Positions 179 to 20,043 of a stretch of 51,901 bases of DNA are shown piece after piece. Where the stretch lies: positions 1 to 51,901 of the forward strand of contig JABSRN010000105.1 of the NCBI GenBank assembly GCA_013214025.1, read 5' to 3'. How positions within the stretch are numbered: the stretch's first letter is position 1; each line of letters starts with the position of its first letter. The position numbers and the translations under genes were made by a program. The notes beneath the pieces are model-generated. The model saw only the letters and a list, made by a program, of their open reading frames with translations. It had not been told where the DNA came from and did no database searches. The DNA is from Polyangiaceae bacterium. Lineage in GTDB: Bacteria > Myxococcota_A > Polyangia > Polyangiales > Polyangiaceae.

Positions 179-2944
179 TTACTGGGGGGGGCCCGGGGCG
201 GGCAGGGATTCGCCCAACGCGGCGGCGATGGGGCGAATCTTGTCTAGTGCCTGTTCTCGCGCGGCGACCTCCAGTTCCGCGCCGAGTTGCGTCAACTGGG
301 GAAACCCGTAGCTGCTGCCGGAACCTTTCAGATTGTGTCCCATTTTTTGTACTGAGCTAAAATCTCCGCGCTCTGCTGTGTCGATGATGCATGCGATTTC
401 TGCGCGTCGGCGTTCCACATATGCTGGAATCAGGTCCCTGATGTCCTCGTCGACCAGACTTGATTGAATGGAAGATGGTGGTGGCCGATCCGGTTCGACG
501 GCGTTGTCGTCGGGCCCCAGCCCCTGGAGGAGGGTCGTCGGTCCCACCAGCGTTTTCTCGAGTAGGTTCAGTAGTGGCTCTCGTCGTACCGGCTTGACCA
601 AGAATCCGTCGCAACCGACCTCCCTCGCAGTCTGCCGGCTGTGGGCATCGTCGCGACCTGTCATCATGATTATGGGGATGCCTGCCGTTTGCGGGTTGCT
701 CTGCAGCCGTTCCGCCACGGTCCAGCCTGAAACGTCAGGTAGTTCGACGTCGAGCAAGATCAGCGAGACCCCTCCAGCCTGAGCGATGGCCACCGCAGCG
801 TTACCGGAATCAGCGGTGCGAACGCGATATTCCCCGGATGTCCGTATCATTCGGTCGACGAGCAATCGCCCATCGGAGAAGTCATCAACGACTAGAATGA
901 GCGGTAACTGACCGAGCCAAGAACGCACCGTGTCGAGTAGGAGCTGACGGCTGATCGGTTTAGTTAGATAGTCATCCATTCCGACTTGGAAGCAGCGGTC
1001 CTGGTAACCCTTCAGGGCGTGCGCAGTGAGAGCGACGATAGGGATGGGCTCGGCGCGCTCGTCCTGTTCGCGTTCTCGAACCAATTCGGCGAAGCGTAGC
1101 CCGTCCATTTTTGGCATCTCGACGTCCGTGAGAATCATGTTGATCTCCTCGTTCCTGAGAAGATTCAAAGCCATACCGGCGCTTGGTGCTGGCAACACTC
1201 GGTAACCGCCACGTTCTAGGACTCGCGACACGAAGAACCTGTTGTCTTCGTTGTCTTCGACGACGAGTATTTTTTGCCCGACGCCCAAGGCGCTCAGCTT
1301 GGGAGCTGGAGATAGGCTCTTCGCGAAGGTATTCTGCTCGGAGCGTGCGAGTAATGTGTTGCTCAGGATATTGCCCAGTGCTTCTAGTCGGATTGGTTTG
1401 GCGAGACACTCCGCGTGGGAGGCACTCAGGTCGATTCCGCTCCCGACGCTACCAAGGGGCACCAACCGAACCGTTCGGACGCCGAATTGAGATGCGAGTC
1501 GTCTGGCGACCGACTGTTGCTCAGGGGTATCATCGAAGATCGTGCAATCCACTAGCATCAATTTGATGCGTTCCGCATTCAGTCGATCGCGGGCGTCCAT
1601 GAGGCAGGCAACCCGTTCGACCCTCAGCCCCCAAAGCTCAAGAGTTTGGTGTAGGTATTCCACGCTTCTGGTGGAGGGGCCGACCAACAACACGGCCGCG
1701 CCCGGGCAGGCCCAAGTCGGCACTGTCCGGGGGGGCTCGGCGATGGGCAGGTCAACGGTTACGGTGATCTCGGTTCCGCGTCCCGGGGTCGAGTCGATGG
1801 CGATGTCCCCCCCCATCATTTCCAACAGGGATCGGGTGATGTGGAGGCCGAGACCTGTCCCGCCGTATTCTCGTTGTACGGACTCGCTGGCTTGCACGAA
1901 ACGTTCGAATATTCGCTCGAGCTGATCGGCCGGGATACCGATGCCCGAATCAGAGACGGAAATTTTTAGCCGCCAGAGGTTTTCGCGTGGTTCGCCCGAT
2001 ACGCGCACCGCCACATAGCCCGTGCTGGTGAATTTAATAGCGTTTGAAATAAGGTTGAGGACGATCTGCTTTATCCTGCAGGAATCGCCCAAGAGTCGGC
2101 GAGGAAGTGCGGGGTGCCGGAAAGAAGCTAAGTCGAGGGACTTGGCTTCGGCTTTGACACACATTGCTTCGGTGACGTCTTCGACGACGGTGCCGGGGTC
2201 GAACGCGATGGATTCCAGCGCGAGCTGGCCGGATTCGATTTTGGAAACGTCGAGGATGTCTCCGATGAGGCCTAATAGGAGTTCCGAGCTGCTTTGGATC
2301 GACCGGAGATAGCGAAGTTGTTCGGGGCAGAGGTTCGTCAGGGATAGGAGGTCCGACATTCCCAATACCGCATTGAGTGGCGTTCTAATCTCGTGGCTCA
2401 TCACTGCGAGAAATTCGGATTTAGTTTGATTGGCGGTCTCGGCTTCATCCTTCGCCGCCTTGAGCTTCTGGGCGAGAGACTCGGCGTCGCGTAGCGAGGC
2501 CTGCGAAGTCTCCAAGAGCAGTAGGTATTCTGCGATAGGGTCGTGGATCGCGAAGTCCTGTAACGATAACGCCAGCTGTTCCAATTGCTCAACATCGCGT
2601 ACCCAAGGCGAGCCGAAAAAGCCGTACTGTGTTCCCAGCCTGCGGAATTCCCCGCGTAAGACCAGCTTAGTGGACCGCGCGTCTATCACGCAGAGTTGTC
2701 GGAGCGGCGGTGCCCATGTGTCCATTTCAGCCGCCACCCCCCGTCGCACGTGGAAAAGGTCGTCGAAGTGTATGCCGATTCGTAGTGTGGGGACGGCGCG
2801 GAGCAGGCTCGGTCCTACGTTCGTGACAAATCCCGATTCGTCGAGCACGAGATAGAATGGGAATAGCGCACTCCACTCTTCGCGGCCCAAGGTTGGGCAA
2901 GACAGCCTACTCGGTGTAGGAGATGTGGAACACATCGTTCCCAT
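179..2944 (-). CDS. H-NOX-associated hybrid sensor histidine kinase (HNOBA-HisKA-HATPase-REC-REC-REC-HPt)
   Basis: A 921-residue soluble multi-domain kinase. Residues about 25-135 look like the HNOBA domain that docks on H-NOX proteins ([11 protein letters not shown]). A coiled linker (145-175) leads to HisKA with phospho-acceptor His184 ([10 protein letters not shown]), then HATPase_c with N box near 300 and G boxes DSGIGI (332-337) and GTGLGL (362-367). Three receiver-like domains follow: about 416-535 is degenerate, without the usual aspartate pocket; 557-680 is canonical with Asp607 (LTDVEMP); 682-800 has Asp732. A C-terminal HPt domain carries His870 (GHNLKGSG). No membrane segment was seen, so sensing is probably by the partner. 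The first codon overlaps the H-NOX gene by 38 bases, implying coupled translation. Expected role: NO-bound H-NOX alters autophosphorylation, and the HPt relays phosphate to free-standing receivers. Confidence 0.93.
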
Positions 2945-3455
2945 TGTCTGCGGAACCTTTCAGTTCGACCCGGACGTTGATTTCGGTGCCGTACAACTCG
3001 GCGAGCCCTTCCAGGAGCCCAACTACAAATAGGGTCAGTCCGTCTCGATGCGAAATGTAGTGTAGCGCGACTTCGTTAGGACCCGTTTGTTTGCATTGGA
3101 ATGAAGGAGGCTTCAGATCTGGAAATGTTAGAGCCACTCGACCGTGGAGGTCATTAAGGTTGTGGAGGCATTCGACGAAGCTCCGACCAGTTCGGGCGAT
3201 GAGCTCTCCGTAGCCCTCCTTTGCGGTGTACTTGATCCAGTATTGCCCGAAGGCTCGGAGAATCTCGGATGGCGCTAGATTTAACTCCTTGCTCGCAGCA
3301 GAGACGAGATCGTACGTGATATGATCGGGATACTGGCTCATGCAGACGAAGTTATCGTTGTCCAACTCGGCACGCTGGCTCACCGCCGTCCACTTCGCCT
3401 CCCCGAATTGGGTGATGACGAGGTCTCTAACGGCTCTGTTGACTAGTCCGTACAT
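2907..3455 (-). CDS. H-NOX haem nitric-oxide sensor protein
   Basis: A 182-residue protein matching the full length of bacterial H-NOX domains (HNOB). It starts [13 protein letters not shown]. The proximal haem ligand is predicted to be His104 in [12 protein letters not shown], and the haem-propionate motif YxSxR is present at 133-137 (YISHR). In this family NO binding breaks the Fe-His bond and changes the activity of a partner kinase or cyclase. The gene precedes and overlaps its hybrid kinase by 38 bases, the standard arrangement. AAGGA about eight bases before the ATG is a plausible ribosome site. I did not find a distal-pocket tyrosine by motif, so NO rather than O2 sensing is inferred from family habit. 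Confidence 0.95.
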
Positions 3456-3482
3456 CGATTGGTTCCTTCATGCACTGTGAAC

Positions 3483-3498
3483 TGCAAAAAGGGGACCG
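3483..3498 (-). promoter_or_regulatory. Candidate sigma-54 (-24/-12) promoter of H-NOX operon
   Basis: The minus strand reads CGGTCCCCTTTTTGCA, with GG and GC separated by exactly ten bases and a perfect TTGCA -12 box (8 of 11 consensus positions). The predicted start of transcription near 3472 leaves a 17-base leader that contains the AAGGA ribosome site. Found by eye, not by a weight matrix. Confidence 0.4.
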
Positions 3499-3646
3499 TC
3501 GGGACGACATGCCGAAATTTGGGGGTTCTTGAGCTGTGTCGGGTGATGTTGCCTCAAATTGGTCTGGCGTCTCAGGGTGGCCGTTCTCAAGTTGCGACGA
3601 ATGCGACATTACGCCGAAGCGGGCCTGGGTACTAAGCGTTTAGAGT

Positions 3647-3662
3647 CGGCACACCGCGTGCA
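3647..3662 (+). promoter_or_regulatory. Candidate sigma-54 promoter before the diguanylate cyclase
   Basis: CGGCACACCGCGTGCA matches 9 of 11 positions of the -24/-12 consensus with correct GG-N10-GC spacing. Predicted transcription start near 3673 is only about seven bases ahead of the ATG at 3680, so the transcript would be nearly leaderless; this weakens the call. Confidence 0.3.
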
Positions 3663-3679
3663 AGGGGGTGGCGGGCAGC

Positions 3680-4627
3680 ATGAACATTCTTTTTTGTGAT
3701 GACGATCCCGAGCAACGCGAGTTGTTTCTACGTCGATTAGAGAATCTGGGGCACACCATCGTTGTCGCGGATGGGGGGAGGGAAGCATGGTGTCACCTGC
3801 GTTCCCGAGTGTTCGACGTGGTGATCACCGATTGGTGGATGCCTGGCATGGATGGTTTGGAGCTCAGTCGACGGATTCGGCGGCGTGGCGATGGATATAC
3901 ATATGTGATCATCCACACCGCTCGGACCTCGCAACTGGGAATCGGTGCTGCGATGCGGGCAGGTGCCGACGACTTCATCCCGAAGCCGATTAGTTCGGGA
4001 GATCTGGCGGATCGTCTAATCGCAGCGGAACGCGTCTGTACCGTTTACCGTGGTCTTCGAGAAAGGGAGCAGGAGTTGCTTCGGCTCAATCGAATGATCG
4101 AGAGACAGGCGAGAACCGACGTTCTGACGGGTATATCGAACCGCACGCAGCTCGCGGAGGACTTTGCGGTTCTCGGGTCTTCGGCTGACAGATACCAAAC
4201 TCCATACGCCATCGTGATGTGCGACGTCGACGCGTTCAAGGCGTACAACGACCACTATGGGCATATTCTGGGCGATCGGGCCTTGCGACGGGTGGCCCAG
4301 ACCATTGCGGGAGAAGTTCGAGCGAGCGACTCCCTGTATCGATACGGCGGAGAGGAGTTTTTGGCTGTTCTCGCGGAGCAAGATGAGCTTTCGGCTCGCC
4401 GTGTTGCCGAGCGCATCGTTGCCGCCGTGGCGGCTTTGGGCGAGGAACATCGGATCAGCCCTTACGGGGTCGTGACAGTGAGCGCCGGGGTCGCAGCGCA
4501 TGTGATTGGAACTGACCCATGGGACACCGTCGCGTCGGCTGATAGCGCGTTGTTCGCAGCAAAAGATGGTGGTCGAAATCAGGTATGTGGTTTCTCTAGG
4601 GGGGGACTGGGAGAGAAACTTGCCTAG
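3680..4627 (+). CDS. Response regulator with GGDEF output (diguanylate cyclase)
   Basis: A receiver domain (residues 1-115; acidic pocket FCDDDP, phospho-acceptor Asp51 in ITDWWMPGMDG, KP at 102-103) is joined by a short coil to a GGDEF domain (about 145-305). The active-site loop is GGEEF at 223-227, and an RxxD inhibitory I-site lies five residues ahead (RASD, 214-217), so product feedback is expected. It should make cyclic di-GMP when phosphorylated. I chose ATG 3680 because the receiver fold begins at once (MNILFCDDD); an in-frame GTG at 3668 would add four residues. It is divergent from H-NOX/kinase and is a likely phospho-transfer target of that kinase's HPt domain. No PilZ or EAL protein was seen in the window. 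Confidence 0.92.
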   Translation: MNILFCDDDPEQRELFLRRLENLGHTIVVADGGREAWCHLRSRVFDVVITDWWMPGMDGLELSRRIRRRGDGYTYVIIHTARTSQLGIGAAMRAGADDFIPKPISSGDLADRLIAAERVCTVYRGLREREQELLRLNRMIERQARTDVLTGISNRTQLAEDFAVLGSSADRYQTPYAIVMCDVDAFKAYNDHYGHILGDRALRRVAQTIAGEVRASDSLYRYGGEEFLAVLAEQDELSARRVAERIVAAVAALGEEHRISPYGVVTVSAGVAAHVIGTDPWDTVASADSALFAAKDGGRNQVCGFSRGGLGEKLA

Positions 4628-4758
4628 ACCTTTCCGGTCTTCTCTGTCTTCTCCCATACTGGGCTAACTCTCTGCATCTCCTCGATGAATCCAGCGAGAG
4701 TCACGGCGCTCAGCAGGGCGTCGTAGCCCCCGAAGGTGAGCGACACGACGACCTTCAC
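4624..4758 (-). CDS. Small unrecognised protein downstream of ATP-grasp gene; possible HAD-domain remnant
   Basis: A 44-codon frame starts at GTG, 20 bases after the ATP-grasp stop, and ends overlapping the stop of the convergent cyclase gene. Its start, MKVVVSLTFGGYDALLS, has the hydrophobic strand and spacing of a HAD phosphatase N-terminus (usually VFDLDDTLYD), but all catalytic aspartates are missing. ATP-grasp enzymes of this type are often followed by a HAD phosphatase, so this could be a worn remnant. It could equally be a chance frame. No strong ribosome site was seen. Confidence 0.25.
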   Translation of the reverse strand: MKVVVSLTFGGYDALLSAVTLAGFIEEMQRVSPVWEKTEKTGKV

Positions 4759-4777
4759 AATCCGCACGGGGCGTTTG

Positions 4778-5788
4778 TCAGCACGCGTCGAGGAGAGGGT
4801 GTTCGTGCAGTGGACGGACGGATTCTCGCGCTTGGGCATCGCCAAAGACTGTTTCGACGGATACGAAGCGCTGGCCCAGATACCTGACCATCGCCAGTTC
4901 CCGGTACGGGGTCAGTTTCTTGCGGTCGAAAGTGCCGAACAGCAGGTCTAGCGCGTGTTTGGGCATGTCGATTCCGGAGGCGACTGTGAGAGCCATGGAA
5001 CCCGGAAAGCGGGGATTGATTTCAAACAGTCTCGCGGTGCCGAACTTGTCGCGGCGGAACTGGACGTTTGACACGTAAGGGAGGGTGAGTTCTGCCACGA
5101 TGGTTCGGGCGTACAGTTCGAGCTGCTGGTCCTTTACTGTGCGGGATGTCACGCTGATACCAGAATCGATGCGTGACCTTTCCTTCGGGACCGTCGCGAG
5201 CGGTTGCCCACGGGTGCTGGCCAAAACGTCAACCGAGTATTCGGTGCCCGGCAGATATTCGCAGATTAGCATTGAGCCGTCAGTCGGCAAGTCGGCCAGT
5301 TCTCTCTGGGACTCAACGCGCCGAACGCCGCTTCCACGCCGCGGCTTTGCGATTACGGGGAACTCCCAATCGTCGAAGTCGATTGGGTTGTGGAATAGAG
5401 CGAACCGTGGAGTGGGCAAAATGTGTCGCGCGTATTGTAGGAGGAGAAACTTGTCCAAGCACGTTCGCAACCTATCCACGGGACTGTTGAGGATAAGAGT
5501 GCCGGCATCCGAGAATGTTCGGTGCTCGAGCGCAAGAGGAATGAGTTCCGCGTCAACAGTCGGAATGAGGACATCGATCCGATGTTTCTGGCATTCGCTC
5601 CAAACAATCCGGGCGAATTCTGGAGCGTCACCTTTGGGAAGCAGTAGCCGCCGATGGCTCGGCACTGAGTAGAGTCCCGAAGCCAGACGATCCGCATCGC
5701 CGGCGTAAATGGCATAGGACGATAGACTGTTCATCACAGCGATGGCGGATGGGCCGCCTGCGCCAGTTACGAGAATGCGAGGTGTCAT
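4778..5788 (-). CDS. ATP-grasp domain carboxylate-amine ligase (carbamoyl-phosphate-synthase-like)
   Basis: A 336-residue protein. It has an N-terminal pre-ATP-grasp Rossmann-like part (MTPRILVTGAGGPSAIAVMN, then YAGDADRLASGLYS) and a central ATP-grasp fold. In the latter FPVIAKPRRGSG (about 144-155) is the ATP-binding loop, ICEYLPGTEYSVDVL a core strand, and LFEINPRFPGS the Mg-binding strand near the C-terminus. The family ligates a carboxyl group to an amine or thiol with ATP; the substrate cannot be read from the sequence. GGAG seven bases before the ATG supports the start. It lies among regulators beside an exopolysaccharide cluster, where such ligases can add amino acids to sugar acids; that link is inference. 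Confidence 0.85.
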   Translation of the reverse strand: MTPRILVTGAGGPSAIAVMNSLSSYAIYAGDADRLASGLYSVPSHRRLLLPKGDAPEFARIVWSECQKHRIDVLIPTVDAELIPLALEHRTFSDAGTLILNSPVDRLRTCLDKFLLLQYARHILPTPRFALFHNPIDFDDWEFPVIAKPRRGSGVRRVESQRELADLPTDGSMLICEYLPGTEYSVDVLASTRGQPLATVPKERSRIDSGISVTSRTVKDQQLELYARTIVAELTLPYVSNVQFRRDKFGTARLFEINPRFPGSMALTVASGIDMPKHALDLLFGTFDRKKLTPYRELAMVRYLGQRFVSVETVFGDAQARESVRPLHEHPLLDAC

Positions 5789-5963
5789 GCTGTTGCTCCG
5801 AGAGCTGGCGATTCAAGATGTGTGCCGCGCTGTCGTGCGCCCGCGCACCCTTGGAGTATGCGCTCTCAGGGTGAGATGCCTCAAGTCGAGACAGAGCGGT
5901 CGGCGCTAAGGTCTCAATCCTGGACGGCCGGGGACCTGCCCCAGGGAAACGCGCCATCGGTGT

Positions 5964-5979
5964 TGGCGCGCGCATTGCA
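5964..5979 (+). promoter_or_regulatory. Candidate sigma-54 promoter before receiver/PIG-L gene
   Basis: TGGCGCGCGCATTGCA matches 10 of 11 consensus positions with GG-N10-GC spacing, the best site in the window. Predicted start near 5990, followed at once by AGGAG (5992-5996) and ATG 6002. Confidence 0.45.
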
Positions 5980-6001
5980 CCGGTTGGGCCCAGGAGTCTG
6001 C

Positions 6002-6514
6002 ATGTCACACTATGAAACGTTGAATTTCCCCGGTCGAGTGCTTGTCGTCGAGGATGACCCGATGATCATCGCCTTGTTCCAACGCTGGTTCAGTTGGCAT
6101 CACGAACTCGAGCTGGTTGGGGCAAGCGGCGCTCAGGAAGCTCTGCGTCTCTGGCGAGAAAGCGACTTCGATCTGCTGCTGACGGACATCGAACTGGACG
6201 GAATGAACGGGGTAGAATTGGCGATCGAGGCGCGACGAGAGCGGCCGGATGCTGCGATCGCATTGATGACAGCACATGCCTCAGTCGATTACGCAACTCA
6301 AGCGGTCAGGGCTACCGTGAACGACTTCATCGAGAAGCCGCTCGACAAGGTTGATATCTGCGGTCGCGTACTGGCCCTGGTTGCCGAGGTCCAAAAACGT
6401 CGGGCGGGTGCAGGACGGACCGTACTTGCGGCAGGGGCGCACCCGGATGACGTTGAACCACGTTGGAACGAGAACAGCTGTGCCATCACCCACGTTTCCT
6501 GCTGCTCAAAGTGA
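6002..6514 (+). CDS. Receiver-domain protein ending at the start of a PIG-L (LmbE-like) deacetylase domain; probably truncated
   Basis: The start is ATG 6002, with AGGAG five bases ahead. A complete receiver domain follows (VLVVEDDPM; phospho-acceptor Asp in LLTDIELDGMNG; FIEKPL). After a short linker the protein reads GRTVLAAGAHPDDVE, the signature zinc-site start (HPDD) of PIG-L/LmbE N-acetylglucosamine deacetylases. The expected GCGGT continuation is absent and the frame runs into a stop about 20 residues later. I could not restore a PIG-L domain in the other forward frames. It is therefore probably a receiver-PIG-L fusion whose catalytic part has been lost or scrambled; the receiver alone may still be made. 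Deacetylation of an amino sugar would fit the neighbouring polysaccharide genes. Confidence 0.75.
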   Translation: MSHYETLNFPGRVLVVEDDPMIIALFQRWFSWHHELELVGASGAQEALRLWRESDFDLLLTDIELDGMNGVELAIEARRERPDAAIALMTAHASVDYATQAVRATVNDFIEKPLDKVDICGRVLALVAEVQKRRAGAGRTVLAAGAHPDDVEPRWNENSCAITHVSCCSK

Positions 6515-6881
6515 TACTGGAGGCCTACATCGTTCATGGTATCCGCCTGATCATCTGCAGCGACGCCGGATCTTGTACCCCCGACAAACTCCCAGTGACT
6601 GGTCAGTTTTCTAGCTAGTTGGAAGATGCCCCGATGTTCCTTCTCGGGGACCAGAGATAGGTGGTCGCAAGCTCCGAGCCAAGTTTCGCGGTCGATGTTC
6701 GACATTACCAGCAGCTGGTTCCGCTGATGGTGCGCTGCGGTGGGTGGCGCCTGAGCAGAGTCGGATGCGTTCATGTCATGGCGGATCAATACGCGGATGT
6801 CCGGCGTCCAGAAGCAACCGTCCGATAATGTGAGCGTTGTGCTCTCGGTCGGAGCGCCGCCTGTGACGCCCGCTCCGGTCG
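6515..6881. other. Stretch without a supportable gene, between truncated receiver gene and TPR pseudogene
   Basis: Forward frames carry frequent stops. A minus-strand frame (about 6298-6789) is open but overlaps the receiver gene and shows no family motif. The stretch is best read as decayed DNA left from the PIG-L domain and from the 3' side of the TPR gene. Confidence 0.5.
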
Positions 6882-7525
6882 TTACGGTACACGGCGTGCC
6901 GCTGTTGACGAGCGGAGTCCATCCAGCGCTTCGGCGCGAGCGCTATCGAGTTCCAACACGTGCAAGAGAGCGGGCCTTGCACGTGATCTTCTGAGGCGTT
7001 GGTGGAGATGTGCCAGTTCAACCAACGTCTCGATGTCGCCCGGATCGTCTTGGACGAGCCGATTGAGGGCGTTCAATGCCGTGGAATAGCCTCCGTGCCC
7101 CCGTGCTGCCCTGGCCTGCCCCAGCCGGGCATCGCGGTCGTCCGGGGCCAACTGTAGCGCCGCACGGTAGTGTTGCGCGGCCTTGTCGAAATGACCCATG
7201 AGGCAGTAGGTTGCGCCCATCGCTAGCTAGCTAGCTGGCTGGGCAGCGAGTTCGGCTTCTGTTGCAGGGCCCGCTGTAGATGAAGGATTGCGGCGCCGAA
7301 CAGCCGACGAGCGAGGAAACGCTGCGTTGCAGATGACTTGTCGGGCTGGCTGGGGTTTTGGAGCTGGGTTGTGACGCGGAGAGAGCCGTGGGGCGTTCTG
7401 GAGCGCCGATTTGGACCACATTCGGGGGGGAGGTGGTCACTCCAACCATAAGAAGTGATTCGAGCGTGGCGGCGGTCTCGCTGGGCCGTATACTCAAGAG
7501 TCGTGCCAGAGCGGGGAGGGCTCAC
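6882..7525 (-). pseudogene. TPR-repeat protein, frameshifted within an AGCT microsatellite
   Basis: Two minus-strand frames together encode tetratricopeptide repeats. Upstream (to 7223): AILHLQRALQQKPNS and a stop. Downstream (from 7220): MGATYCLMGHFDKAA, YRAALQLAPDDRDAR, then further repeats to LELDSARAEALDGL. The two parts abut at (AGCT)3AGC on the minus strand (about 7223-7237). Deleting two 4-bp units (8 bases) joins them in frame and gives SQLAMGATYCL, exactly the spacing of a continuous TPR helix pair. The present copy number causes a stop. The true N-terminus is unclear: the 60 residues before the first repeat have no motif. TPR proteins are scaffolds; partner unknown. Confidence 0.6.
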
Positions 7526-7582
7526 GCGTACTGAACGTCGTGGTGCCGGAGCAATGGCGGTCTCAGTGGACTCACCGTGAGA

Positions 7583-7598
7583 TGGCTCGGTTGCTGCA
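7583..7598 (+). promoter_or_regulatory. Candidate sigma-54 promoter before the NtrC-type activator
   Basis: TGGCTCGGTTGCTGCA matches 9 of 11 consensus positions with GG-N10-GC spacing. Predicted start near 7609 leaves a 26-base leader to ATG 7635. It suggests that the activator gene could be autoregulated. Confidence 0.4.
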
Positions 7599-7634
7599 TT
7601 AAAGTTGTCTCACTTCAAGCCGTTCTGACTCAGT

Positions 7635-9068
7635 ATGAGCTACCCACAGTCCCTAGATGATAATTCTCGTTGCGCGGTCGGCGCCGTTGCGGTTTTAGAC
7701 GATGATCCGATGACTCGGCGTTTGATCCGTCGATGGCTGGAGACGTCGGGCTATTCAGTGATCGAGTATGAGCGAGGGGCGGAAGCCCTGGAGTACACGG
7801 GGCCGCCCCTTGCTGCAGCCTGCATTGACCTGGGACTGGATGACATGTCTGGAATGGATGTCTTGGAACACCTGCGTGCACGAGATCCGGACCTGCCGCT
7901 GATAGTTGTGAGTGCGCAGTCGGGGTTGGAGACCGCCGTTGAGGCAATGAGAGCGGGCGCCTACGACTATTTGGTAAAGCCGTTGGAACGCGAGCGACTA
8001 GCGCTGGTGATCGGCCGCGCCGTTGAGAAGCGCTCCTTAACAGCTGATGTTCAGCGACTGCAAGGGCAATTGGACAGCAGGCGCGTCCTCGGCTCCGTCG
8101 TCGGCGAGAGCGGTCCAATGCGAGAGCTGGCAAGTCAGGTCGAGCGGATTCTGGAAAGCGACGTAAACGTGTGCGTGTTTGGTGAGAGCGGCACGGGCAA
8201 GGAGCTCGTCGCCCGCGCGATTCACGATGGTGGGCAGCGAAGTGCCCGGCCGTTTGTAGCGATTAACTGCGCTGCGATACCCGAGTCCCTCCAAGAGTCC
8301 GAGTTGTTTGGGCATGAGCGTGGGGCGTTCACTGGCGCGACCGGGATGCATCGGGGCCGTTTTGAACAGGCCGAAGGCGGCACGCTATTCTTAGACGAAC
8401 TGGGCGAAATGAGCACTTCGACGCAGGCTAGCCTTCTACGCACACTTCAGGAGAAAACGATCCGAAGAGTCGGGGCTGCCGCCGAAGTCCCGGTTGACGT
8501 GCGTATCGTTTGCGCCACTCACCAGGATCTGAGAAATGAGGTGGAGGAGGGGAATTTTCGTGAAGATCTCTACTTCCGTTTAGTAGTGTATCCGCTACAG
8601 CTAGCCCCACTTCGTGAGCGACTCGAAGATATTCCACTACTCACAGGGCATTTCATGAGGAGTTTGGCAGATGATGTTGGCCGTCCGGTGTCGAGAATTA
8701 CTTCGGAGGCTCTCGAAGCATTGTCCCGATATTCGTGGCCCGGAAACGTGCGGGAGCTTCAGAACGTCGTGCACCGCTCGATGTTGTCCAGCGATGGCGA
8801 GGTGATTGTAGCAGGCGATCTGCCGCCGGATATTCAGCGATTGGCATTGCCCTCGCTGCCGGCATCAGCCCAGTATGCCATGCCGACCACTCCTCCCGGT
8901 ATGGAACCAGAAGTTGTCGTTCCACTTCGAGAACTGGAGCGTCGCGCGATTCATTCAGCGTTGAGTCAGACTGGCGGTAGCGTGAGTGAGGCGGCGAGGC
9001 TGTTAGGAATTGGACGGGCGACGCTGTATCGGCGACTGGCGAAGTTCGAAACTACGGGGGCTGCCTGA
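7635..9068 (+). CDS. NtrC-family sigma-54-dependent response regulator
   Basis: 477 residues with the full NtrC architecture. Receiver: acidic cluster LDDDP at 21-25, phospho-acceptor Asp65 (CIDLGLDDMSG), lysine in LVKPLE. AAA+ domain (about 150-390): Walker A GESGTGKE, sigma-54-contacting GAFTGA loop, Walker B GTLFLDELGEM, and the R-finger region near FREDLYFRL. C-terminal Fis-type helix-turn-helix: GSVSEAARLLGIGRATLYRRL. When phosphorylated it should oligomerise at enhancer sites and open sigma-54 promoters with ATP. It sits between the NO-signalling genes and the polysaccharide cluster, both of which have candidate -24/-12 promoters, making it the natural activator of both. No ribosome site of note precedes the ATG. 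Confidence 0.95.
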   Translation: MSYPQSLDDNSRCAVGAVAVLDDDPMTRRLIRRWLETSGYSVIEYERGAEALEYTGPPLAAACIDLGLDDMSGMDVLEHLRARDPDLPLIVVSAQSGLETAVEAMRAGAYDYLVKPLERERLALVIGRAVEKRSLTADVQRLQGQLDSRRVLGSVVGESGPMRELASQVERILESDVNVCVFGESGTGKELVARAIHDGGQRSARPFVAINCAAIPESLQESELFGHERGAFTGATGMHRGRFEQAEGGTLFLDELGEMSTSTQASLLRTLQEKTIRRVGAAAEVPVDVRIVCATHQDLRNEVEEGNFREDLYFRLVVYPLQLAPLRERLEDIPLLTGHFMRSLADDVGRPVSRITSEALEALSRYSWPGNVRELQNVVHRSMLSSDGEVIVAGDLPPDIQRLALPSLPASAQYAMPTTPPGMEPEVVVPLRELERRAIHSALSQTGGSVSEAARLLGIGRATLYRRLAKFETTGAA

Positions 9069-15353: not shown

Positions 15354-15369
15354 TGGCTTCAGACTTGCT
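15354..15369 (+). promoter_or_regulatory. Candidate sigma-54 promoter before glycosyltransferase gene
   Basis: TGGCTTCAGACTTGCT, with perfect TTGCT -12 box and GG-N10-GC spacing, 9 of 11 positions. Predicted transcription start near 15380 falls at the ATG 15381, which would make a leaderless message, unless the start codon lies further in. Confidence 0.4.
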
Positions 15370-16604: not shown

Positions 16605-16757
16605 GTGGTCGCTTTGATGGCTCGGAACAGGCTGCTCGGTGGCATGGTGGCATGGTGGGCAGTCTTGGCGGTTGCGTGTTCATTACTGGGTTTGGCGTTG
16701 CCTGTGCGGGGCTGGCTGCTCTGCGTGATTCGTGGGACGCTGGGCAGGGCGGGCTAG
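16605..16757 (+). CDS. Small hydrophobic membrane peptide
   Basis: A 46-codon frame from ATG 16617 (or 50 from GTG 16605, directly after the glycosyltransferase stop) ends at TAG 16755-16757, overlapping the stop of the convergent export gene by four bases. After MARNRLLGGM there is one membrane segment, VAWWAVLAVACSLLGLAL, then a basic tail. Nothing in it is recognised. Reasons to accept it: it directly follows its neighbour, has a clear basic-hydrophobic-basic pattern and uses similar codons. No ribosome site of strength is visible, so translation would depend on coupling. Confidence 0.35.
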   Translation: MVALMARNRLLGGMVAWWAVLAVACSLLGLALPVRGWLLCVIRGTLGRAG

Positions 16758-17749
16758 TTCTTCATCACGCTCGACGTAACCGCTAAGCCCATCAGCGCCG
16801 TGGTCAAACTAGGTGTCAATTCGGCTGCGCTTGCGGTCCAGTGACGGGTCACGAATACGACGTCTCCCGGTGCGAGTTCGATGTCGGGGCCGTCTCCGTC
16901 CAAAAGTTGGGCCAGGCTTGCTGTGTAGATCTTGGGGGATGTGAGATTTCCGCGAATGATTCGGATATCGCCGTTGTCTGCCTTGCCCGAAGGTCCACCG
17001 GCTCGGGCGAGGGCCTCGGTCAGGCGCATTCCTCTCTGGAACACCAGGCTTTTTGGCAACTGAACCTCACCGATGACGCTGATACGCCGATTGTTCGTTC
17101 GGGGTACAAATAGAATGTCTCCCGGCCTAAGATAGATATTGTGTTTGAGGTCCCCGCGCATCGCGTCGGGGATGCTGACTGACAACGCTTTTCCCTCTCG
17201 GACGAGTCGGGCACCAAGCAGGTCGGCGTCGGGAACCGACTGGCCGTCTTCCATATACATGAGCGGCGCACCACCCCCGTGGACAAATAGTTCAACGAGT
17301 CGCGCACCCGGTCGAATTACGTAGGTTCCGGGTTGCTGGACGCGTCCCACAATAGTGGCCAGGTGTCCTTTGGCCTCCACCAGTTGGAGAGCGATTCGAG
17401 AGTGATGACTGTACTGGCGGTAGCCGGATTCGATTGCGGCTCGGGCCGACTCCAAATCGCAACCAGCTATGAGTAGCGGGCCAATGAGCGGTAGGTGGAT
17501 GTGTCCGTCTTCGCGAACGGTGATTGTTCCCAATTCTTGGGATTCCGCCCCCAGCAGTTTCACTCTGAGTATGTCTCCTGCCAATAATTCGAACGGTTGT
17601 ATCCGATCGTCTGAGAGGCCTTCAAGAGGGACGAGCGCCGCAACGAAATTTGGCGGTGGCGTCGATGGTGCTGGCGGGAGTCCGCTGCTGCACGCGACTT
17701 GCCATATCAAAAGAATAAAGGGGGCGAAGAGACAACGTAGTGACCGCAT
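16754..17749 (-). CDS. Wza-type polysaccharide export lipoprotein (Poly_export, SLBB)
   Basis: 331 residues from ATG 17749. MRSLRCLFAPFILLIWQVAC is a lipoprotein signal with lipid Cys20. The Poly_export domain begins LLAGDILRVKLLG and runs through VREDGHIHLPLIGPL. SLBB-like domains follow: VGRVQQPGTYVIRPGARLVELF, then VIGEVQLPKSLVF with LTEALARAGGPS. Each ends in a P/LGDxxFVxR strand (RPGDILFVPR, APGDVVFVTR). It should form the outer-membrane channel for capsule or exopolysaccharide with the Wzz-like protein encoded divergently. No Shine-Dalgarno sequence precedes the ATG, which lies inside the 49-bp palindrome. An in-frame ATG at 17773 is also in the palindrome. Confidence 0.92.
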   Translation of the reverse strand: MRSLRCLFAPFILLIWQVACSSGLPPAPSTPPPNFVAALVPLEGLSDDRIQPFELLAGDILRVKLLGAESQELGTITVREDGHIHLPLIGPLLIAGCDLESARAAIESGYRQYSHHSRIALQLVEAKGHLATIVGRVQQPGTYVIRPGARLVELFVHGGGAPLMYMEDGQSVPDADLLGARLVREGKALSVSIPDAMRGDLKHNIYLRPGDILFVPRTNNRRISVIGEVQLPKSLVFQRGMRLTEALARAGGPSGKADNGDIRIIRGNLTSPKIYTASLAQLLDGDGPDIELAPGDVVFVTRHWTASAAELTPSLTTALMGLAVTSSVMKN

Positions 17750-17793
17750 GTCTGACTGATTGGCATGGTCCATGCCAATCAGTCAGACATGCG
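17745..17793. promoter_or_regulatory. 49-bp palindrome spanning both start codons of divergent export and STAS genes
   Basis: Two perfect 24-base arms (17745-17768 and 17770-17793) flank one unpaired base (17769). Each arm contains the start codon of one divergent gene near its outer edge (ATG 17749 minus, ATG 17789 plus). The two proteins would therefore share their first residues even with the upstream alternative starts at 17773 and 17765. The centre contains TGGCATGGTCCATGCC, a GG-N10-GC sigma-54-like element readable on both strands. There is no T-run as expected of a terminator. It could be an operator, a symmetric promoter or a cruciform. Confidence 0.75.
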
Positions 17794-18217
17794 ACTACTC
17801 AAACAGTCTGAACCGCCCCAAGCCACCGACCGCGCCTCGGGTATTTTCGTTACGGGTGATGCGCCCGTCTCCGGCCGGCGTCCCGACGCCGAAAGGGGGA
17901 GACTTCGGGTATTTTGTGTCGATTCGTCACAGTTGGGTCCACGCCTCGGAAACGAAATACTGCGGTGGGCCGCTCTGGAGGTGGCGTATGTTCCGGCTGT
18001 TTTGGTCGTTGACTGTTCCAGCGTGTCTACGTTTGAGCCAGCTGGGTTGCGTTGTCTGTCGCGTCTTGAGACTTTCTGTACCCCTACGTGTCAGGTTGTT
18101 CTGACGGCTCTCTGCCCCGCGCTGGAGCGTGCTGTCCGGAACTTAGTACTTCACGACACGATACATGTTTTTGATTCCCGCGACATTGCGGAACTGTGCC
18201 TTGGTCGTGGTCCGTGA
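17789..18217 (+). CDS. STAS-domain protein in polysaccharide operon
   Basis: 142 residues. After a 45-residue variable N-terminus the fold reads RLRVFCVDSSQL, VAYVPAVLVVDCSSVSTFEPAGLRCL, CQVVLTALCPALERAVRNL and IHVFDSRDIAELCL: the strand-helix pattern of STAS (anti-sigma-antagonist-like) domains. The usual phospho-serine motif DSSGL is replaced by FEPAGL, so the classical phosphorylation switch is absent. Role unknown; such domains act as protein-docking modules. ATG 17789 lies in the palindrome with no ribosome site; ATG 17765 is an in-frame alternative. The stop overlaps the next gene (GTGA). Confidence 0.7.
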   Translation: MRLLKQSEPPQATDRASGIFVTGDAPVSGRRPDAERGRLRVFCVDSSQLGPRLGNEILRWAALEVAYVPAVLVVDCSSVSTFEPAGLRCLSRLETFCTPTCQVVLTALCPALERAVRNLVLHDTIHVFDSRDIAELCLGRGP

Positions 18218-20043
18218 TCGAGCCGGAGCATCAATTGCCGGGAGCGCCTGCCATCGCAGAGCGTCCAGGTACGCCTGTTGAGCTTCGCCGCATCGGACTC
18301 GCGCTCCTCGACTCGCAAGTCTGGATCGCTATCGCTACCGTGTTAGGTGGGGGGCTGAGTTTTTTCGGTTCGAAGTATCTGCTCAGTGTCCAATACCGGG
18401 CGGATTGCGTCGTTGAGTGGAAGCCGATTGGCGGCAACGTCGAGGAAACAGGGGGTCGTACTTTGGTGGAGAGTGTGAAGTTGCCGACGAATTTGGCAGC
18501 TGTGCGTACACGTTTGGACCTCCCGGTGACCTTGACTGCGCTTGGCGCGGCTGTGGAGGTTAGTTCGGCTAAAAAGAGTCGATTGATTTCAATTAGCGCA
18601 GTACAGCCCGATGCCGAATCGAGTCAGTCACTCGCGAATGCCGTGGCAGGGCAGTTTGTTACCAGTCGCGACATGTTGAGGAGGGTAGTCCTGGAGCGCC
18701 ATGTCTCAATCGTACAAGATGATGCGAGGAGGGCTGGCGAGGTCGTCGGTCTCGCGCGCGCCGAATTGGATCGTTTCAGAAGAGTGCATCATCTATTGGA
18801 CTTTCGTCTGGAGCGTGAAAAGACGATGAACAGGTCTGTGCGCGCCTCGAACGAGGCAGAAATGGCAATGGCCGTTGCTTCCGGGGAGACCGCGCGTCAG
18901 CGGGCATTGGCGAAGGTGGCGAAGGGGCTAACTCAGCGGGTGGTTCAGAACGAAATCGAGACAGATCTACTCGGCCGAAAGCTAGATGAAGCTCGAGCGA
19001 ATTTGTTGGAGGCCCGCGCCAGCCACACGGATGCGCACCCAGTCGTGGAGGGTTTGAGCGCAAAAGTGCAGAAGTTGGAGGTTGGGTCGCTGGGAGCATC
19101 TCCTACCACCATGCAAAGAACCTGGGGCATCAACACTCAGTGGACCCACGTGCAAAGTGAAATAACCGGAAGCGAAGCCAGCCGGGATGCGGCGAATGCG
19201 CGGCGAAACGTCTTGGACGCGAGTGCGGGATCGGCCGCCGAGCGACTGCGATGGCTGAAAGAGATTGAGCCCGAGTACGAGGCGTTGAGCTTGCGCCTAA
19301 AGTCTTTGGAAGCTCACCACGAAGTTCTCATTCGTGACCTGGCTCAAGCTGTTGACGCGGCTGCGCACGCCAACAGTGGGTTAAGCGTCGTTTCTCCTGC
19401 TGAGCGCCCGACGAATCCGAGCCATTCGTCGAAACGGCTCGCGTTTACAGCAAGCGTGGTCGGCAGTTTTGTTTTGGGAATTTTGATTGTACTGGCTAGG
19501 TGCCTTCGTCGTGGCGCCTGCTACGTCGCCGCAGAATTCGCCTATTGGTCGAATATGCCCGTGTTGGGAGCGACGGGTTGGCCGGCGTTGGCTCTGCCAT
19601 TGAAAACGGTGGTCGAGCCGCTACTGAGTCAGGCGGCTGGCATCCACCGGCTGCTGCTGGTTCCGGGATCCGCGGTAGATGTCGGTGCAACGCAGCGCCT
19701 GGCACGAGGGCTACGGTCTCATCTCGCCAGGCGCACGGTGGTTGGAAAGCCGGAGATCCGCGTGGGCGCGATCGCCGATGTTGTCCACACACTGCCGAAG
19801 CTCCGAAATCAAGTACGGGAGGCCAATATCATTGTGGTGGTCGCGACATCGGGCGCCCACAATGCTTTCTCGCTTCTAGGTTTGCGGGATCGCCTTGGGG
19901 CTCAGCAGGCTGTCGCGGTGTTGGTCGTCGGTGTTGGCGTGGAGCTTGCAATGTGTGTGGACCGGGTTGGCGAGGTCGATGAATTTTGGTCGGGCGTGTC
20001 TGGCACGGTGCCAGTCAAGGGAGCGGCGACATCGGAGGGGTAG
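18214..20043 (+). CDS. Wzz/GumC-type chain-length determinant (polysaccharide co-polymerase) with degenerate C-terminal domain
   Basis: About 609 residues from GTG 18214, which overlaps the STAS stop; GTG 18196 is an alternative. A first membrane segment (VWIAIATVLGGGLSFFGSKYLL) leads into a long periplasmic coiled-coil region (about 130-385, with EYEALSLRLKSLEAHHEVLIRDL). A second segment follows (LAFTASVVGSFVLGILIVLA). The cytoplasmic 190 residues have the strand-helix pattern of a BY-kinase P-loop domain, but I find no Walker A and no tyrosine tail, so kinase activity is not expected. It should set chain length and contact the export channel encoded divergently. Confidence 0.8.
   Translation: MIEPEHQLPGAPAIAERPGTPVELRRIGLALLDSQVWIAIATVLGGGLSFFGSKYLLSVQYRADCVVEWKPIGGNVEETGGRTLVESVKLPTNLAAVRTRLDLPVTLTALGAAVEVSSAKKSRLISISAVQPDAESSQSLANAVAGQFVTSRDMLRRVVLERHVSIVQDDARRAGEVVGLARAELDRFRRVHHLLDFRLEREKTMNRSVRASNEAEMAMAVASGETARQRALAKVAKGLTQRVVQNEIETDLLGRKLDEARANLLEARASHTDAHPVVEGLSAKVQKLEVGSLGASPTTMQRTWGINTQWTHVQSEITGSEASRDAANARRNVLDASAGSAAERLRWLKEIEPEYEALSLRLKSLEAHHEVLIRDLAQAVDAAAHANSGLSVVSPAERPTNPSHSSKRLAFTASVVGSFVLGILIVLARCLRRGACYVAAEFAYWSNMPVLGATGWPALALPLKTVVEPLLSQAAGIHRLLLVPGSAVDVGATQRLARGLRSHLARRTVVGKPEIRVGAIADVVHTLPKLRNQVREANIIVVVATSGAHNAFSLLGLRDRLGAQQAVAVLVVGVGVELAMCVDRVGEVDEFWSGVSGTVPVKGAATSEG

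Follow-up and report, generated by a model that had tools for sequence, protein, structure and literature searches.

A 49-bp palindrome between divergent wza and STAS genes of a Polyangiaceae bacterium: a putative symmetric two-way sigma-54 promoter

Two-way promoters and sigma-54 at polysaccharide loci

Promoters that serve two divergent genes have been described before. The bidirectional sigma-70 promoters of E. coli have a pseudo-symmetric core on which the polymerase takes two exclusive orientations, giving divergent RNAs (PMC12825309). Sigma-54 has been linked to exopolysaccharide genes generally (PMC3162934), and in the class Myxococcia sigma-54 regulation is predicted to be enriched for the polysaccharide export proteins of COG1596 (PMC12316311). 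The same paper states that M. xanthus does not survive deletion of rpoN. Binding between divergent genes is also known for sigma-54. In E. coli, 19 of the 61 intergenic peaks of the RpoN holoenzyme lie between divergent units, and the divergent sgrST-setA and sgrR are both RpoN- and NtrC-dependent (PMC8743547). As for perfect stems, a template switch is able to make one in a single event (PMC8794818).

The palindrome described here resembles the E. coli sigma-70 promoters in having a core that can be read in either orientation, however, the symmetry there lies in the -10 element (PMC12825309) and here it would span the whole -24/-12 pair of sigma-54. The type of regulation would be the same as that of the sigma-54 polysaccharide export promoters, but a shared symmetric core or a near-leaderless start is not mentioned in the accessible portions of PMC12316311 and PMC3162934. 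Divergence is likewise shared with the RpoN operons of E. coli, for which one symmetric core serving both directions is not described in the part of PMC8743547 consulted. The perfect stem is like that of template-switch hairpins (PMC8794818), but the stem at this locus spans a putative promoter and two start codons. A sigma-54 core that is symmetric and works both ways was not described in the literature searched, which included few subscription journals, and this is weak evidence of absence. Two-way promoters are already known; what would be new here is one that uses sigma-54.

The palindrome, its core and the genes around it

The window, meaning the whole stretch of DNA that was analysed, is a contig of 51,901 bp from a draft genome of 5.77 Mb in 184 contigs. 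This genome is referred to as G000, other G numbers denote the genomes of relatives, and L numbers denote the loci examined. The initial annotation had reported a 49-bp palindrome of two 24-bp arms around a single base, and this proved exact: the arms at 17745-17768 and 17770-17793 are perfect inverted copies with one T between them (Table 1). The length of the palindrome is far beyond chance. When the 1.82 Mb read from this genome was simulated once with an order-2 Markov model, no perfect arm of 15 bp or longer appeared, and the next-longest inverted repeat of the window, among those listed with a spacing of up to 60, has 17 bp at 82%. The 24-bp arm occurs once in the 5.77-Mb genome when up to 3 mismatches are allowed. 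A possible extension of the arms beyond a 3-nt bulge (GTAGT/ACTAC) was dropped (p=0.30).

Both start codons lie in the outer arms, as had been claimed. The A of the wza ATG is at 17749 on the minus strand, the STAS ATG begins at 17789 on the plus strand, 39 bases separate the two codons and each arm ends five bases inside its gene. The signal peptide of the wza product, MRSLRCLFAPFILLIWQVAC, starts within the left arm. The STAS assignment in this genome is weak by Pfam (E 1.1e-4, 22.3 bits, slightly below the cut-off of 22.6); the genes at the same position in G132, G133 and G134 encode clear STAS proteins. The Wzz-like protein had no Pfam match at 1e-3.

Table 1. Features of the window discussed in the text (the predicted +1 is defined in the text)
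Feature	Position	Strand	Basis or remark
Perfect palindrome, 49 bp, 24-bp arms and central T	17745..17793	.	Inverted-repeat search
Sigma-54-like box TGGCATGGTCCATGCC, STAS-facing	17761..17776	+	9/12 with both GG and GC present, +1 predicted at 17787
Same core on the other strand, wza-facing	17762..17777	-	9/12, predicted +1 at 17751
wza-like outer-membrane polysaccharide export lipoprotein, start MRSLRCLF	16754..17749	-	Poly_export, SLBB; alignments of relatives
STAS-domain protein, start MRLLKQ	17789..18217	+	Pfam STAS; homologues adjoin wza in G084 and G133
Wzz-like chain-length/co-polymerase protein	18196..20043	+	Name inferred from gene order; overlaps the STAS end
NtrC-type activator (response regulator, Sigma54_activat, HTH_8)	7635..9068	+	Own sigma-54-like box at 7583, 10/12
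Sigma-54-like box ahead of response regulator gene at 6002	5964..5979	+	11/12, predicted +1 12 nt before the gene
Sigma-54-like box ahead of glycosyltransferase ATG 15381	15354..15369	+	9/12, +1 predicted a single nt ahead of the ATG

The sigma-54 consensus TGGCACG-N4-TTGCW (-24/-12) is the basis of all box scores given here. The predicted +1 is placed twelve bases beyond the C of the GC, and the leader is the number of nucleotides from there to the ATG. The TGGC-N8-TGCC at the centre of the palindrome reads alike on both strands, as the initial annotation had noted, and both strands carry GG at -24 and GC at -12 with N10 between them. TGGCA and TGCCA are reverse complements standing at sigma-54 spacing, so that each of them is the -24 element in one direction and the -12 element in the opposite one. 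The two boxes form one core with divergent starts correctly placed both ways, and the predicted +1 lies two nt ahead of the ATG on either side of the palindrome. Inspection by eye found no Shine-Dalgarno-like run ahead of the wza or the STAS ATG, which had also been pointed out; with predicted starts 2 nt before the ATGs, ribosome sites are not expected. Taken by itself, the match of 9/12 is weak. Matches of at least 9/12 number 97 in the window against 83 expected, and 6 of 100 shuffles reach 97.

The RpoN DNA-binding domain is encoded in the genome (E 1.6e-64), and the window holds a gene for an NtrC-type activator, which by its proximity may be the enhancer-binding protein for the palindrome promoter. 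Genes for a response regulator and a GGDEF protein, together with an H-NOX/histidine-kinase pair, lie beside the activator gene. The stretch from 179 to 9068 encodes a hybrid histidine kinase with Hpt, an H-NOX protein, a GGDEF response regulator, an ATP-grasp protein, a response regulator and the NtrC-type activator. The position of this signalling cluster beside the exopolysaccharide (EPS) genes suggests that nitric oxide or redox state may feed into EPS control.

Boxes of at least 9/12 precede 9 of the 21 genes of the EPS region (2.9-25 kb), both palindrome genes included. The mean for 1000 permutations was 0.97 with a maximum of 5, so that none reached 9; this test accepted leaders from -2 to 45 with or without GG/GC and used a gene list and alternative starts chosen by the analyst. 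At a threshold of 10 the number falls to 2 of 21 genes, which 9 of the 1000 permutations matched. In this genome, boxes at leaders 1-8 were found for 8 of 1429 predicted starts. This equals the null rate, therefore near-leaderless sigma-54 starts are no general habit of this genome. Three 11/12 boxes elsewhere in the genome precede ORFs by 2-3 nt, and apparent signal peptides are present in at least two of these ORFs.

Box placement at the wza loci of relatives

A class-wide search for wza gave a match at 1e-20 in 94 of 317 genomes, and 30 loci were analysed (L204-L233, the present one included). Ten of them carry a box of at least 9/12 with its predicted +1 1-5 nt before an in-frame wza ATG, a leader window that was picked after the first cases had been seen. 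These are the loci of G084, G000, G128, G133, G056, G142, G134, G132, G178 and G242. Three (G000, G084 and G133) were known before the 30-locus test, the box of G128 had been listed earlier without its distance, and six are new. No such box at leader 1-5 was found at the other 20 loci. When the consensus was permuted 500 times, 410 permutations gave no locus at this threshold, 70 gave one, 19 gave two and a single one gave five. At 10/12 or better the count is 7 of 30 loci, and the same 500 permutations gave none in 489 cases, one in nine, two in one and three in one. The null rate per ATG with GG/GC intact, at least 9/12 and leaders 1-8, was 0.0019 at 40 loci of this genome (19306 ATGs) and 0.0026 in G019 and G022 together (9800 ATGs). 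The core of this genome, with 9/12, is among the weakest boxes of the wza set. The position of a sigma-54-type box thus appears to be conserved ahead of orthologous wza in part of the relatives.

Boxes that face the partner gene were found as well. In G133, which belongs to another family, 10/12 boxes face both wza (leader 5) and STAS (leader 6). G084 has a wza-facing box of 9/12 at leader 3 and a degenerate STAS-facing box of 10/12 at leader 2, with GG in place of GC at -12, given a STAS start that was the analyst's choice among several. Over the 32 nt ahead of the STAS ATG, 17 of 32 positions are identical in G000 and G084, a value equalled by 15 of 9813 random ATGs. An unanchored alignment of the gaps in these two genomes reached at best the 95% point of the null, and the start-anchored comparison is therefore used alone and as suggestive. 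The partner-box search covered eight of the ten box-bearing loci (those other than G000 and G084) and required intact GG and GC. At five of the eight the divergent gene has such a box, with a leader of 2-6; the partners are glycosyltransferases in G128, where the start is GTG, and in G056, and STAS proteins in G133, G134 and G132. The remaining three loci had no partner box at a leader of 6 or less. In G142 a box lies 15 nt ahead of the GTG of a more distant divergent ORF, and in G178 and G242 no partner box was seen at leaders 0-15. A further observation comes from three genomes of one genus, where a second gene near wza (L210 3460, L214 585 and L215 3380) encodes a protein start like [MV]KW[IV]AFFGA and is likewise preceded, at a distance of 3-8 nt, by a sigma-54-like box.

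The two boxes of G056 overlap almost fully, with TGGCACGCCCCGTGCC on one strand and CGGCACGGGGCGTGCC on the other, shifted by one base. The ATGs of wza (1486) and the glycosyltransferase (1447) have 38 bases between them, and the leaders are 1 and 2. This core is a short dyad common to both genes, without long arms, which means that a shared core can exist without the long palindrome. The shared cores of G000 and G056 would be independent of one another, as they occur in different families and with different partner genes. The symmetric 17-mer core is not over-represented in the 317 genomes: 25 sites in 22 genomes were found, against about 67 (a hand count) in the backward-read control. For 23 of the 25 sites the surroundings were examined, and 8 have the ATG of an ORF of at least 100 aa at leader 1-8 on one side or more; for positions drawn at random from G019 and G022, counting both strands, the corresponding figure is 6.7%. 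The present locus is the only one of the 23 with an ATG on both sides (null 0.075%). In other genomes, symmetric sigma-54-like 17-mer cores were observed 2 nt before the starts of lipoprotein-like ORFs (L237, L250 and L252).

The long arms behave differently from the boxes. A wza alignment search found 15 loci (a scan of contigs with a single wza protein found none) in MAGs that carry the labels Polyangia, Polyangiaceae, Myxococcales, Myxococcota, Sandaracinaceae or Deltaproteobacteria, which makes Polyangia the probable class of the present genome. The distant L164 and L165 were set aside, leaving 13 myxobacterial or delta-proteobacterial loci (L151-L163) which overlap the G-numbered genomes (L151 and G084, for example), so that the two sets are not independent. 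Relative to wza, a wzz-like gene is divergent at six of the 13, runs in the same direction at one and was not found within the available DNA at six. A comparable inverted repeat within 700 bp around the wza start was found at none of the 13; the nearest cases are L162, which has an imperfect hairpin but no divergent orientation of wzz, and L152, which has a 10-bp repeat around a loop of 18 nt. G084 keeps the divergent order of wza on the minus and STAS and wzz on the plus strand around a gap of 174 bp with no palindrome. The initial annotation had stated that its reading would fail if relatives kept the gene pair and lacked the element. For the long palindrome this is what was found, but boxes at the same distance are kept in 10 of 30 loci. 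The 24-bp arms are absent from the relatives examined and probably arose later, by inverted duplication. The upstream likeness to G084 is suggestive of the STAS side being perhaps the older arm.

A two-way promoter and competing explanations

The palindrome is likely to be a sigma-54 promoter that is symmetric and works both ways, with wza on its left and STAS-wzz on its right. This reading rests on comparative placement, and the two-way promoter suggested at the outset is supported by the boxes of the relatives, the core of G056 and the clustering of boxes in the EPS region. A single sigma-54 holoenzyme at a time would occupy the core, facing either way, and occupancy in one direction would shut out the other. 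Sigma-54 polymerase requires an ATP-driven activator, and here an enhancer-binding protein, possibly the NtrC-type protein, would open the complex. Its binding place may be within either flanking gene; sigma-54 enhancers are able to act from either side. The RNAs would start 2 nt before each ATG and be nearly leaderless. As both genes need the same distance from core to ATG, an inverted copy running from the centre of the core through the start codon yields a palindrome of exactly this kind. A short inverted duplication or template switch may have copied this stretch to the other side, and the copy would have given both genes an identical promoter, leader and first codons.

The same kind of event could also have happened without consequence, in which case the palindrome would be a mutational by-product of template switching at a divergent pair and would in itself have no function in regulation. 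Long perfect repeats of unrelated sequence do occur elsewhere in this genome, also in coding DNA. Perfect inverted repeats with arms of at least 16 and loops of up to 10 number 16 (two of them overlapping within one repeat) in the 1.82 Mb read, about a third of the genome, and the longest palindromes differ in sequence. The same criteria gave 3 repeats over 0.40 Mb of pSymB, 5 over 0.25 Mb of a Cupriavidus megaplasmid, none in 0.40 Mb of G019 and G022, 1 in 0.07 Mb of L152, L153 and L155-L163, none in 0.15 Mb of other relative loci and none in 0.05 Mb of E. coli. A genome-wide excess of palindromes was rejected, since pSymB and Cupriavidus show the density to be ordinary. Loss of SbcD as a cause does not discriminate: the own genome has a weak match, the cut-off is passed by 22 of 108 family genomes, and G019 and G022 fall below it yet have no long palindromes in the stretches read. 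The 35 repeats with arms of at least 13 in this genome include 16 within coding DNA and 8 located between divergent genes, classes which are approximate because the gene caller was rough, chose late starts and missed STAS. A 56-bp perfect palindrome with no spacer (L035 19191-19246, C47:99191-99246 of G000) is located inside an N-acetylmuramoyl-L-alanine amidase gene, between its N-terminal part and AMIN/Amidase_3 with the frame intact, and a 57-bp inverted repeat with 25-bp perfect arms and a 7-nt loop lies within a predicted ORF (L122 14613-14669). As a class, then, such palindromes are not exceptional, and it is the centre and the position that matter. The amidase palindrome, the ending of complementarity with the perfect arms in most long repeats, as at this locus, and the gene pair kept in relatives without the palindrome all fit a by-product. 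It leaves unexplained, however, the central sigma-54 box at an ATG distance which recurs in relatives, and as a whole it is an unlikely account. As an account of the long arms alone it is compatible with the two-way promoter.

A perfect dyad between divergent genes would also suit an operator through which a dimeric or tetrameric transcription factor controls both genes, and G142 and G056 have dyad cores at wza as well. However, the 19-mer core has just four other sites in the genome, all with 3 mismatches (control 1), and what the asymmetric versions of relatives retain is a left-hand TGGCAYG and a right-hand YGC, which is the sigma-54 pattern and not a dyad. An operator is improbable. A repeat family or regulon was rejected on the same four sites and the uniqueness of the arm. 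The spacing TGGCAT-N0-30-ATGCCA occurs at 7 places, the same frequency as the control. The core 20-mer had no exact match in viral contigs, the surrounding 701 bp had none in a plasmid collection, and no Rfam family was found in the window. An assembly or library artefact, a fold-back or wrong join, could be suspected in a draft of 184 contigs with a gap of 39 bp here, against 174 bp in G084, but both reading frames and the sigma-54 spacing are intact, G084 has the same gene order and G056 has a 38-bp gap around one core, so that an artefact is very improbable.

The strong folding (RNA -47.3 kcal/mol, z -9.2; DNA -31.3, z -10.8) could be taken to mean a cruciform or RNA-hairpin switch that masks both start codons, one of the ideas put forward at first. 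An RNA hairpin, however, needs a transcript that begins outside the palindrome, the relatives examined do not conserve the arms, no terminator was found at the locus, and nothing positive was found beyond the foldability that any palindrome has; the chance of such a switch is close to nil. The terminator reading had been disfavoured from the beginning, and the search for a hairpin followed by a T run returned no site in 17300-18300, so that an intrinsic terminator was rejected. A self-inverting control element, also proposed at first, is excluded by geometry, because inversion around a one-base spacer alters a single base (T to A).

Returning to the two-way promoter, a wider history can be proposed for the polysaccharide export loci of the class. 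Separate divergent sigma-54-type boxes, the starting state of such a history, are seen in G128, G132, G133 and G134. Two divergent promoters of this kind may have collapsed at least twice, in G000 and G056, into one symmetric core in which -24 and -12 exchange their functions. The nearly leaderless expression of wza and of its divergent partner would then be either coupled or mutually exclusive. We lean slightly towards this history.

If the two-way reading is true, an activator-driven polymerase can also use one core for two genes, and this opens the question of how an enhancer-bound activator picks the orientation of the closed complex. It would link a myxobacterial exopolysaccharide locus with a nearby NtrC-type activator, and it suggests that some sigma-54 transcripts may have very short leaders.
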